Virus record (IMG/VR): IMGVR_UViG_3300031758_000192
Span: 1 to 39,529 of that record
Reading direction: 5' to 3' (one strand)
DNA from: a virus
Length of the DNA: 39,529 bases
Part shown: positions 18,210 through 21,448 of the stretch, piece after piece
How positions within the stretch are numbered: position 1 is the first letter of the stretch
Layout of the letters: each line of letters starts with the position of its first letter
Translations under genes and position numbers: made by a program
The notes under the pieces: model-generated
What the model saw: the letters and a program-made list of their open reading frames with translations, nothing else
What the model was told of the DNA's origin: nothing
The model's database searches: none

Positions 18210-18231
18210 AACCCCCGCAAGTGCAGGGGTT
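18210..18231 (-). terminator. 9-bp hairpin with U-rich 3' flank; also a candidate DGR target hairpin
   Basis: On the minus strand AACCCCTGC pairs with GCGGGGGTT around an ACTT loop (nine pairs, one of them G-U), followed by TTGCTTTTA. It begins 35 bases after the stop of the 487-residue gene, so it reads as an intrinsic terminator. GC-rich short-loop hairpins just downstream of DGR variable repeats also help target recognition in Bordetella phage BPP-1, and this one follows such a repeat. Both roles are possible. Confidence 0.75.
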
Positions 18232-18266: not shown

Positions 18267-19730
18267 TTATGTATTAAACTTCCTTACCGCACGCACATAG
18301 TAGGTGGAGTTCTTGAAGGCGTTGAAGGCACCCCCACTGGAGAAGAAGAAGTACCACACGGTGCTGCTGTCGTACTCCGTACTACTCCAATAGGAGGTGA
18401 AGACTAACTGAGTTCCTCCAGAACTTGTTATTCCTTGTGCTACTTCCCATCTGTTATTAAATAATTTATTTAATTCATCTATGGCTGGGAGGTACCAGTC
18501 TGTTTTACCATTGTTTGTACTTGCATCACATAATTGAGCTGCGGTACCTACTGTAATTCCACCAGGTGCTCCTGCGGCAATTAGATTTGTAGTATTAGTT
18601 TTACCATCCCATGTACTTTCAACATTTGAAATATCTATATTTAAAGAAGCCCATTGTGCTGATGTAGATAAATCATTTGTATCAACAACAAGATAATTTT
18701 GAACTGATCCTGGACCAGGTGATCCTCCAGGCGTTCCAGATAACCATCTATGGAATATTACCCCACCTTCCGTTGAAACATATTCACCAATTTCATAATC
18801 CCAACTGTTTATTATTAGAGTATCTCCTATTATATTAGTAGATATTTCTTTACCACCAATTACTGTAAGTATATCAACTGGCGTATTGGCTGTTGTAAAT
18901 CCTGCATCACCAATAAATGTTGCCCAAAGATTTGGTGAAACCACAGAGGGTGCTGATATAGTTATATCTGTAGCAGTTGATGATAATGAAATTCCTGTAC
19001 CAGCTTTTAAACCTTTGGTAGCTAATGATGGTCCAGTGCCATCATTTACTAAACTTTCATGCGCCCCAGTACCAGCATCCCCTAATCCAACGGATGATGC
19101 CGGACTATTATTTGTAATTGTTATTTCATCTGTAATTGCATTAGTTGTAATCTGAATGCCAGTACCGGCAGCTAAAGTTAATGTATCATTATTACTATCT
19201 GCAATTACTGTTGATTGACCAGCTACAGCAATATTTTTAAAAATATTTTGTGCAGATCCCGGATCAGTATTACTAACAATATAAGATGTAGTATTACCTA
19301 CGGTAGATGATGTAACATTAATTCCTGTTCCATAATCTACAAGATAAACAGGTAATTCATTTGGATCAAAGCATACTGTATATGTAGTAACTCCAGTAGA
19401 TGGATTAGTTGTAGATGTAACAGATAAATAATCATTTGTTCCACATACATTAACTACTGCACCTATTGATGGTGCAACAACAAATTCACAAAAATAACTA
19501 ATAATATCATTTAATGCATCTGCAAGATTAGTATCTGTTGCAACAACAACCTCATTAGCACATTCTATGTCTATGCCAGTATATACTACACATTCTGCAT
19601 CAAATACTTCTGAGCAAGTTAAAGGTGTTGGGCATCCAGCCGGAGTTGGGCATGGTGCAGGTGATACTAGTGCATTGTCTGCACATCCACATTTTTTACA
19701 TCCACAATTTGTACAAGTATTAGTAGCCAT
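18267..19730 (-). CDS. Tail fibre/adhesin with C-terminal DGR-variable C-type-lectin-like domain
   Basis: A 487-residue protein. The N-terminus is Cys/Pro-rich (CTNCGCKKCGC) and then has C-V-x-Y-x-G-x-DI-x-C...ALNDIISYFCE, a module shared with the next fibre gene and probably the virion-attachment part. The middle (about 90-330) is Ser/Thr/Gly-rich beta repeats typical of fibres. The C-terminal about 110 residues have WYLPAIDELNKLFNNR...YWSSTEY...YYVRAVRKF, a DUF1566-like (C-type lectin or formylglycine-enzyme fold) domain used as a DGR target in many phages. Codons change abruptly there: 22 of 34 codons for residues 444-477 end in C, and local GC is about 52% (62 of 120 bases, 18301-18420) against an AT-rich surrounding. 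I infer a receptor-binding protein whose tip is diversified. Its stop is followed by a strong hairpin. Confidence 0.85.
   Translation of the reverse strand: MATNTCTNCGCKKCGCADNALVSPAPCPTPAGCPTPLTCSEVFDAECVVYTGIDIECANEVVVATDTNLADALNDIISYFCEFVVAPSIGAVVNVCGTNDYLSVTSTTNPSTGVTTYTVCFDPNELPVYLVDYGTGINVTSSTVGNTTSYIVSNTDPGSAQNIFKNIAVAGQSTVIADSNNDTLTLAAGTGIQITTNAITDEITITNNSPASSVGLGDAGTGAHESLVNDGTGPSLATKGLKAGTGISLSSTATDITISAPSVVSPNLWATFIGDAGFTTANTPVDILTVIGGKEISTNIIGDTLIINSWDYEIGEYVSTEGGVIFHRWLSGTPGGSPGPGSVQNYLVVDTNDLSTSAQWASLNIDISNVESTWDGKTNTTNLIAAGAPGGITVGTAAQLCDASTNNGKTDWYLPAIDELNKLFNNRWEVAQGITSSGGTQLVFTSYWSSTEYDSSTVWYFFFSSGGAFNAFKNSTYYVRAVRKFNT
18276..18407 (-). other. Candidate DGR variable repeat (VR)
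   Basis: The coding strand carries runs of NNC codons (TAC, TTC, ACC, AGC, TCC, GCC, GAC, AAC) for residues 444-477, set in the conserved frame YWSS-x-E-Y ... Y-Y-V-R-A-V-R. This is what adenine mutagenesis of AAC codons in a template repeat produces. The 3' end (18276-18299), coding VRAVRKF, is GC-rich and probably serves as the initiation-of-homing segment. The matching template and reverse transcriptase are not in this window. Boundaries are estimated from codon use alone. Confidence 0.7.
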
Positions 19731-19741
19731 AGTTTAATTTA

Positions 19742-21448
19742 TTAAGGACAAACAATTGGTGTTGGTATATCAGTAGTACAAGGATTTATATAAGCAATTA
19801 ACCCGTCTAATTGAAATATAAACCCTCCAAGATTTGTTTCATCATTTGCATTACAACTAAATTGATATCTTAGGTTTGTATCATATTCCATATCCAAACC
19901 AATTGTTCCTGGTGCAACATTACTATTTACATTAGTATTTGCATTATCAAACTTAGGAACATAGTCTCCAATACGAACATGTGATACAACATAGTTTAAA
20001 TGAGAAGTATTAAATGCATCTGTTCCAGAAAAAGCATTTTGCTCTCCGTTTTTAAGTAAAGCAAAAGATAACGTTTTATTACTTGCAATTGATAAACTTC
20101 CAATGGTAGTAAGAATAGTACTGGTATCTGGAATAGAATTAATCTGAGTTCTTCTATAACCTATTGTAAAGTTTTTAGTATAGTTATCATCAAGGCTTTC
20201 TAATGCACTCATTACTGAGTTTGGTATAACTGACACACCTTGATTAAATGTAATCAATCCAGTAGAGGATGCAATTACAGAACCAGCACCAACTGATGCA
20301 GGAGTTACAGTAGTAGACAAATAATATGTATCTACTGGTGGAGTATTTTGATATTGCCATAATAATGGTGCGCCTACTCCATCATCAATAGGAATCATTA
20401 CTTGACCTTTAAAATGCAAAGTATTTCCAATTCTTCTTACTCTTGGTCTTAATGCATCTGTATCAGATCCTGTATAGAATCCAAATCCATCAAGATTTAT
20501 CCAACCAGTATCTAAGATTTTTGCAGAAAAAGAATATGCTGGACCTGTTGAAACAGAAAGCTGAATTGTATTAGTGGTTGATCCAGTAAATGAAAGTGAA
20601 CTCACATACTGATAAACATCACAAAGTGAAAGCCAAATGTTATTAATTGCATCTGCTACAGTATTTGTAGATGCAATAGGAACCCATTGGCCTAAATAAG
20701 CAACAGAAAATGGTGTCCCATATACAAGTGAAGCATCAGTATCAACTATGCATTGTGACTGAACTGCTGCAAGAATATCTGCTGGTAAACCTGTAGTAGA
20801 TCTTAATGCACAATATCCATAAGTACCGTCATTTACTAATGCATCTAATACTTCAGTAAGTGTATAAGTTCCTGGAGAAACAACAATAGCACTTAAAGTA
20901 CAATCAACTGAGATTGAAGGTACCGTAAATGTTGGTGTTGGAGCAGTTTCTAATGCAGTTACTCTAATATCTAAATTAGTAATCTGATTATTAATAATAG
21001 TAATTTGATCAACAAGACTACAAATTCTAGCTCCCATTGCTTGAGCATATTCAGCAATAGTCATGACTGTTGTTGTACCTATAACAAAACAAGGCGCAAC
21101 AGTAACTAATGTGTCTGCGGATGTTGATCTAGTAGTTACATTAGTAGCTGGTATTGCAGCAGCTGCCGCTTGAGCAGCTTCTATTGCACAAATTCTATCA
21201 ATTAGAAATTGAATTAACTCTTGAATGTTTTGAGGCTTACAGCTTGCTAAATCAAAACAAGATAAGTCATAACCATTAACATCTAAAAGATCCATGATAT
21301 TGCAAAGCTCAGTAGCAAGCTTATGAATAACATCGGAAACAGTATCTCCAGTGCATAGTTTAATACATGGAATATCTGGACCCTGCCAAATCACACAATT
21401 ACTTGATATTGGACTACATGGACTATTATCTAAATTTATAGGTTTCAT
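19742..21448 (-). CDS. Tail fibre-like protein with repeated helix-LC anchor modules
   Basis: A 568-residue protein, 11 bases upstream of the DGR-target fibre. Its N-terminus (C-V-I-W-QGPDIPCIKLC-x-GDT-x-SDVIHKLATELC) resembles that of the 487-residue neighbour, suggesting that both dock on the same virion site. Short helix modules ending in Ile/Leu-Cys recur (ATELCNIMDLL, IDRICAIEAA, GARICSLVDQI, WLSLCDVYQYV), separated by Thr/Val-rich beta segments. A helical Q/I/N stretch (about 145-168) leads to the distal half, which is beta-rich without a recognised enzyme or lectin motif. I infer a trimeric fibre or adhesin. The spacer before its ATG contains TTAGTATATTA, part of the recurrent motif. 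Role by composition and neighbours; fold not identified. Confidence 0.65.
   Translation of the reverse strand: MKPINLDNSPCSPISSNCVIWQGPDIPCIKLCTGDTVSDVIHKLATELCNIMDLLDVNGYDLSCFDLASCKPQNIQELIQFLIDRICAIEAAQAAAAAIPATNVTTRSTSADTLVTVAPCFVIGTTTVMTIAEYAQAMGARICSLVDQITIINNQITNLDIRVTALETAPTPTFTVPSISVDCTLSAIVVSPGTYTLTEVLDALVNDGTYGYCALRSTTGLPADILAAVQSQCIVDTDASLVYGTPFSVAYLGQWVPIASTNTVADAINNIWLSLCDVYQYVSSLSFTGSTTNTIQLSVSTGPAYSFSAKILDTGWINLDGFGFYTGSDTDALRPRVRRIGNTLHFKGQVMIPIDDGVGAPLLWQYQNTPPVDTYYLSTTVTPASVGAGSVIASSTGLITFNQGVSVIPNSVMSALESLDDNYTKNFTIGYRRTQINSIPDTSTILTTIGSLSIASNKTLSFALLKNGEQNAFSGTDAFNTSHLNYVVSHVRIGDYVPKFDNANTNVNSNVAPGTIGLDMEYDTNLRYQFSCNANDETNLGGFIFQLDGLIAYINPCTTDIPTPIVCP

Follow-up and report, generated by a model that had tools for sequence, protein, structure and literature searches.

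A probable DGR-type variable repeat at the tail fibre tip of a crAss-like phage and its relatives in chromosomal DGRs of Bacteroidia

Introduction

The IMG/VR virus record IMGVR_UViG_3300031758_000192 carries a tail-fibre-like gene of 487 aa (18267..19730, minus strand, recognised as an ORF with an Lcl_C domain) whose 3' end is occupied by a short stretch of NNC codons, which is what a template with AAC codons randomised at its adenines would produce. This locus raises two questions: whether the fibre tip is the variable repeat (VR) of a DGR and, if so, where the template repeat (TR) and the reverse transcriptase (RT) that would write it are located. A first-pass annotation, made from the DNA letters and their open reading frames, had answered yes to the first question and had placed TR and RT elsewhere in the same phage genome. 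Here, both points are addressed by in silico analyses of the whole record, a 39.5-kb AT-rich fragment of a crAss-like phage (39,529 nucleotides) hereafter called the window, together with related viral records and bacterial genomes.

The fibre gene and its repeat family

The assignment to Crassvirales is given by CrAss_Ring_1 and CrAss_Ring_2 (Pfam PF24228 and PF25702), encoded beside the fibre gene, while the portal, the terminase and the major head protein were located further along the window by PHROG matches, whose names give no group assignment. The fibre protein begins with an N-terminal anchor (residues 17-83; 19482..19682, minus strand), which 64 of 80 crAss-like relatives (L370-L449) keep at the equivalent position while the tip is swapped, the latter being alignable in only 5 of the 80. 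Residues 263-466 match the PHROG 'baseplate wedge tail fiber protein connector' (E=4.5e-10), and residues 373-483 form an Lcl_C (DUF1566) domain (18282..18614, minus strand; Pfam PF07603, E=1.6e-12). The profile of the Lcl_C alignment matches the solved Lcl domain 8q4e (E=3.6e-10), which was also the best PDB match of the fibre fold model (E=6.9e-4); this was the only use made of the model, which is weak (pLDDT 66) and does not allow surface mapping of the variable residues. Searches of INPHARED and PLSDB gave no DNA match and one weak protein match, which covers residues 160-253 and does not reach the repeat.

The near-identical phage L073 could be aligned with the window over 12.9 kb, in which 8 substitutions and two length differences were counted. 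The latter are 60 extra bases in the fibre gene of the window (19542-19632) and some 153 extra bases in the adjoining gene (about 20880-21032), both multiples of three, and no strong tandem repeat was found at either stretch. These two genes change by block indels, against a background of so few substitutions.

Codons 444-477 of the fibre include 22 NNC codons out of 34, whereas only 26 of codons 1-443 end in C. No other 34-codon stretch scores as high in the 18 larger ORFs tested on the minus strand, which have an overall NNC rate of 849/11433. Likewise, GC3 is 0.12 in residues 284-439 (156 codons) versus 0.82 in 33 repeat codons, and GC content over 120 bases peaks, along the whole window, in the stretch that starts at 18287 (64/120). 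The first-pass annotation had therefore located the NNC switch and its size correctly, as well as the high GC content in an AT-rich genome and the YWSSTEY...YYVRAVR frame of the DUF1566 domain, although it extended the switch to the last third of the fibre when it takes up approximately the last 45 codons. The hypervariable segment of NNC/NNT codons was delimited at 18300..18404 (minus strand) from the family columns and pair comparisons described below, its ends being set by eye. A fixed 5' block, TATTGGAGTAGTACGGAG (18375..18392, minus strand), lies inside the repeat and is invariant or nearly invariant in 25 repeats, and a mostly fixed GC-rich 3' block, TATGTGCGTGCGGT (18286..18299, minus strand), is placed like the IMH of a DGR, a role that its position suggests.

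Relatives of the repeat were sought in IMG/VR with two patterns, one in which the A positions were left open and a mid-scaffold pattern, which would match any template sharing its fixed bases. According to their translation, 14 of 105 open-A matches and 31 of 49 mid-scaffold matches were real, providing 36 viral records besides the window, and the other 91/105 and 18/49 matches were discarded as unrelated. The repeat family thus comprises 37 viral records, window included, built on one GC-rich scaffold. They amount to 1,374,253 bases, with a median length of 23 kb and a maximum of 296 kb, and 10 of the 36 records besides the window reach at least 40 kb. It must be noted that all 37 are classed as linear and may be fragments, that several are copies of one virus and that their phage status was checked in part; one of them, G015, has phage-type replication genes. 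In the 781 kb of fetched sequence, R1, a profile built on the repeat, found one copy per viral record and two in G011. The latter record has two tandem genes of 107-109 aa with YWSSTE tips (L108:5669-6337), one with the scaffold and one diverged, located just before the genes for tRNA-Glu and tRNA-Gln.

Thirty-five viral loci (with the window) and two bacterial ones could be read alike and yielded 25 distinct repeats; L097, with another end sequence, and L120, at a contig end, were dropped from this read set, and L115 was left out of the column counts given its extra codon. In 24 distinct repeats, fixed blocks that include silent third positions are set against 36 variable columns, which correspond to first and second positions of NNC/NNT codons. 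All four bases are present in 26 of these columns and three in 9; A alone is the most frequent base in 26 columns out of 36, with one tie. Among 13 aligned domains, third bases are identical in 2331/2580 codon pairs within the repeat versus 4355/8499 upstream, while the identity of the first two bases is about equal in both regions (1323/2580 versus 3971/8499). L371 and L415 are syntenic relatives whose copies of the domain use AT-rich codons and are without the scaffold (GC3 of 0.18 and 0.11, respectively); taken as a natural control, they suggest that the signature is due to templating and not to the domain.

Chromosomal DGRs of the same target family

The scaffold is found not only in the crAss-like fibre but also in a protein next to a contractile-injection-like gene cluster (L287) and in the bacterial protein L201, which has by eye a signal-peptide-like start and an upstream GC3 of 0.32. 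L196 and L201, both chromosomal, show no departure from the phage scaffold at its invariant columns (44/44), and each departs at 2 of the 25 nearly invariant ones. L196 also adjoins contractile-injection-like genes (tube PF06841, OB-spike PF04717). When the R1 profile was searched in two drawn sets of genomes, one from the order of G038 and one from the class of G039, matches were obtained in 18/396 and 34/395, respectively, although these large scans used stricter filters and the profile gave no match in G040, whose looser DGR is touched by a local search.

Complete DGRs were identified in G402 and G454, each consisting of an Lcl_C target with its VR, bAvd, a template and an RT with the motif PIGNLTSQ; the Lcl_C of the G402 target falls below the Pfam cut-off. 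In both, all template-to-target changes are at adenines (21/21 and 20/20, respectively) and 0 elsewhere, and the same holds for the looser relative G040 (22/22). The number of matches per bacterial genome is often several, with seven in G506, two of them template-like, and five in G324. In the G506 MAG, the template-target pair of L488, on the same contig, shows 15/15 changes at adenines, and two different template-like copies lie on separate contigs (L488 and L478), with further targets elsewhere. L481 was also considered as a template-like copy and rejected, as it reads as an in-frame target. Family repeats with no RT match are present in G324, G181, G200, G185, G089, G088, and G251.

Among 13 repeat-bearing Bacteroidia genomes, only G402 has an RT beside a template of the phage-repeat family. 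No RT match was obtained in 7 of them and a weak one in another, in genomes that are perhaps incomplete, and the RTs of G085 and G177 are without the DGR motif, which weighs against diversification of the phage repeat in trans. Bacteria, too, may therefore harbour orphan targets. A further point against the trans reading is that a cognate template for the phage scaffold was not found, the four bacterial family templates differing from the window repeat at 10-12 non-adenine sites in 66 nt. The DGR of G038 itself, which has FGE-type targets, was rejected as the template source for the L196 repeat of this genome, its TR being unrelated.

Other arrangements were seen in the MAG that contains L287. 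Its contractile-injection-like cluster (L287:7791-18996), in which tube and spike were recognised by Pfam and the other genes by look, ends in a 107-aa protein with the variable repeat of the family, followed by a DGR-type hairpin. The same MAG contains a DGR with two targets that look FGE-sulfatase-like and an RT with the motif PVGNLCSQ (L286:3000-6600). The L287 hairpin, CCGCGAAGCGG, also follows both L286 targets, while the L286 template is unrelated to the L287 repeat.

A hairpin CCGCG[AT]AGCGG, with a GAA or GTA loop, follows 17 of 48 bacterial VR-like copies, 14 of these 17 at 144-155 nt from the repeat start, and is absent after the remaining 31. After viral copies it was seen in 0/26 (L371 and L415 of these being without the scaffold), a difference with a Fisher p = 0.0003 between copies that are not fully independent. 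Downstream hairpins of this sort have been described as cis elements for retrohoming (PMC3240598, PMC4372165). Their absence after viral copies makes canonical retrohoming onto the phage repeat doubtful, as it would need to work without the hairpin, and makes recombination with an already diversified copy a serious alternative route. In the window, a hairpin with a T-rich stretch is located downstream of the stop codon (18210..18231, minus strand; z -1.97). It was set aside as a DGR hairpin given its loop, ACTT instead of GRNA or GAA, and is most likely the terminator of the fibre gene; by eye, a similar stem follows the scaffold-free relative L371.

Source of the fibre tip diversity

Taking all these data together, we are confident that the repeat at the fibre tip is of the DGR type. 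As for its source, we consider that the repeat diversity comes from a bacterial DGR pool, either in trans or by recombination, with a probability of about 0.5. The adenine-template-style variation of sister records and the existence of bacterial relatives with template, Avd and RT sustain the first-pass annotation in placing a VR of DGR type on the crAss-like fibre tip, while the location of TR and RT elsewhere in the same genome was neither confirmed nor contradicted by the fragments covered.

It is conceivable, though rather unlikely, that the phage has a DGR of its own, with RT, Avd and template in the unsequenced half of its genome and acting on the fibre. CrAss-like phages with DGRs have been published (PMC7290462, PMC12386605), and about half of the genome has probably not been seen because the contigs of relatives reach 122.6 kb. 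Moreover, the viral contig L493 contains, within about 3.2 kb, a YWSST...VRAV target (no Pfam match), a gene resembling bAvd (E=1.1e-9, slightly below the curated threshold), a template, and an RVT_1 gene, with 19 of 19 template-target differences inside the repeat at template adenines, which shows that a similar phage-borne system is detectable by such a search. Against an own DGR, the RT is close to the target both in L493 and in crAssphage LMMB (PMC7290462), while none was found here in 54 kb. The window itself has no PF00078 match and no second or template-like copy of the repeat, as the first-pass annotation had stated, and another 14.5 kb past its right end could be covered with the near-identical phage G001; in the resulting 54 kb, which are the stretch seen and not the whole genome, neither RT nor template was found. 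Using PF00078, RTs numbered 0/1 in the window, 0/14 in a first set of records, 13 of which carry the repeat, and 0/25 in a second set that added 23 new ones, giving 0/37 repeat-bearing viral records. In addition, all 31 real mid-scaffold matches in IMG/VR are in-frame targets, the template-type exact pattern had 0 matches in this database, in scans that may omit records very near the window, and the R1 profile revealed no viral template in the 781 kb fetched. The viral contigs yielded 3 loci with close relatives of the G402 RT, at 35% identity, and no YWSS domain or AAC-rich stretch was present in the flanks fetched for them.

We also regard as improbable that a diversified tip was gained by recombination from a bacterium or another phage and is now static, no longer being rewritten. 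In favour of this, the repeat of L073, the sole near-identical phage compared, is identical to that of the window in spite of the 8 substitutions and two length differences mentioned above, so that the variation within its own phage for which the first-pass annotation had proposed to look was not observed; in addition, RT, template and DGR-type hairpin were not found, and L371 and L415, with the same domain, AT-rich codons and no scaffold, look like decayed copies. However, the third bases of the window repeat have not drifted toward AT, and sister records with nearly identical flanks differ in the repeat, which indicates that the tip is still exchanged or rewritten in the family. L054 and L137, from different metagenomes, have an identity of 98.8% in the flanks compared (889 bases upstream of the repeat, 400 bases downstream), and differ at 26 of 105 sites in or just before the repeat, distributed as 12, 13, and 1 over codon positions 1, 2, and 3. 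Similarly, L105 and L111 show 26 repeat differences (12, 14, and 0, respectively) with 99.5% identity downstream. One side has A in 18/26 differences of the first pair and 24/26 of the second, the adenine sites of the template being putative. At the same time, eight groups of near-identical records, the window and L073 forming one of them, have a single repeat each. Repeat turnover in the family is real, wholesale and infrequent.

Finally, that there is no DGR at all and that the NNC bias reflects a locally GC-rich segment or codon-use selection for the domain is very improbable, for although the domain is also present in bacteria with higher GC3 (0.32 upstream in L201), a pattern in which third bases are fixed while the other two codon positions vary freely is the reverse of ordinary coding constraint, the low GC3 of L371 and L415 implies a fold that does not need C-ending codons, and the template adjoins the target in bacterial relatives.

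Returning to a bacterial DGR pool as the source, the Lcl_C receptor-binding tip would have been written from a GC-rich template with AAC/AAT variable codons, of the kind present in Bacteroidia, in whose chromosomal DGRs an error-prone RT works together with Avd on the targets, sometimes several per genome. The phage would bring the target alone, without template, RT or Avd. Its tip would change seldom and then as a whole, most likely inside a host that provides template, RT and Avd in trans from its own DGR, or else through recombination of the tip with a host or phage copy diversified beforehand. From the templated signature, the turnover between sister records, the matching bacterial DGRs and the lack of RT and template in the viral records searched, all of them observed here, we infer the host as the source, as well as the choice between these two routes. 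As a more general and tentative idea, varied Bacteroidota phages might carry the target half only, with a host DGR diversifying their receptor-binding tips in trans during infection. If this were true, a bacterial diversification system would be parasitised by its viruses. Furthermore, if phage targets can be rewritten by a DGR absent from the phage, the hypervariable binding domains of bacteria and of viruses would belong to connected pools, and surveys that start from the RT will miss such targets; in this regard, one large survey states that its own approach would not detect remote targets (PMC8144416).

Comparison with known systems

In the literature searched, we found no report of a repeat family across viral records that shares its scaffold with host-type chromosomes. 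Nevertheless, a crAss-like repeat without a template is not new as such, since it has already been reported in PMC7290462, where 80 crAss-like genomes have a VR and 30 of these a TR. CrAssphage LMMB, described in the same article, is a crAss-like phage too, and a tail fibre-type gene likewise carries the target at its 3' end but, unlike the window phage, it has target gene, VR, TR and RT in one cassette (PMC7290462); DUF1566 does not occur in the main text of that article (PMC7290462).

Diversification of a fibre tip, as proposed here, is known from Mtd of Bordetella phage BPP-1. This phage has its own DGR, with an IMH and a downstream hairpin, and no such hairpin was recognised in the window phage. 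Trans action on a target borne by a recipient phage has been engineered for BPP-1, with avd, brt and TR supplied from a donor plasmid (PMC3240598). The RT-less DGR fragments of Nanoarchaeota are sites without an RT gene, which their authors read as fossils or as remotely diversified, and their GRA hairpin loops resemble the GAA loop after bacterial targets in the present set; they lie within one cellular genome, whereas here the repeats extend across several kinds of viral records (PMC4372165).

A close likeness exists with the chromosomal DGRs of Bacteroidia. In G402 and G454, the VR is followed by the CCGCG[AT]AGCGG hairpin and has Avd, TR and RT at a distance of no more than about 2.5 kb, neither of which was found in 54 kb of the phage; their target domain is nevertheless the one present in the phage fibre, and both the codon frame and the fixed blocks are closely similar.
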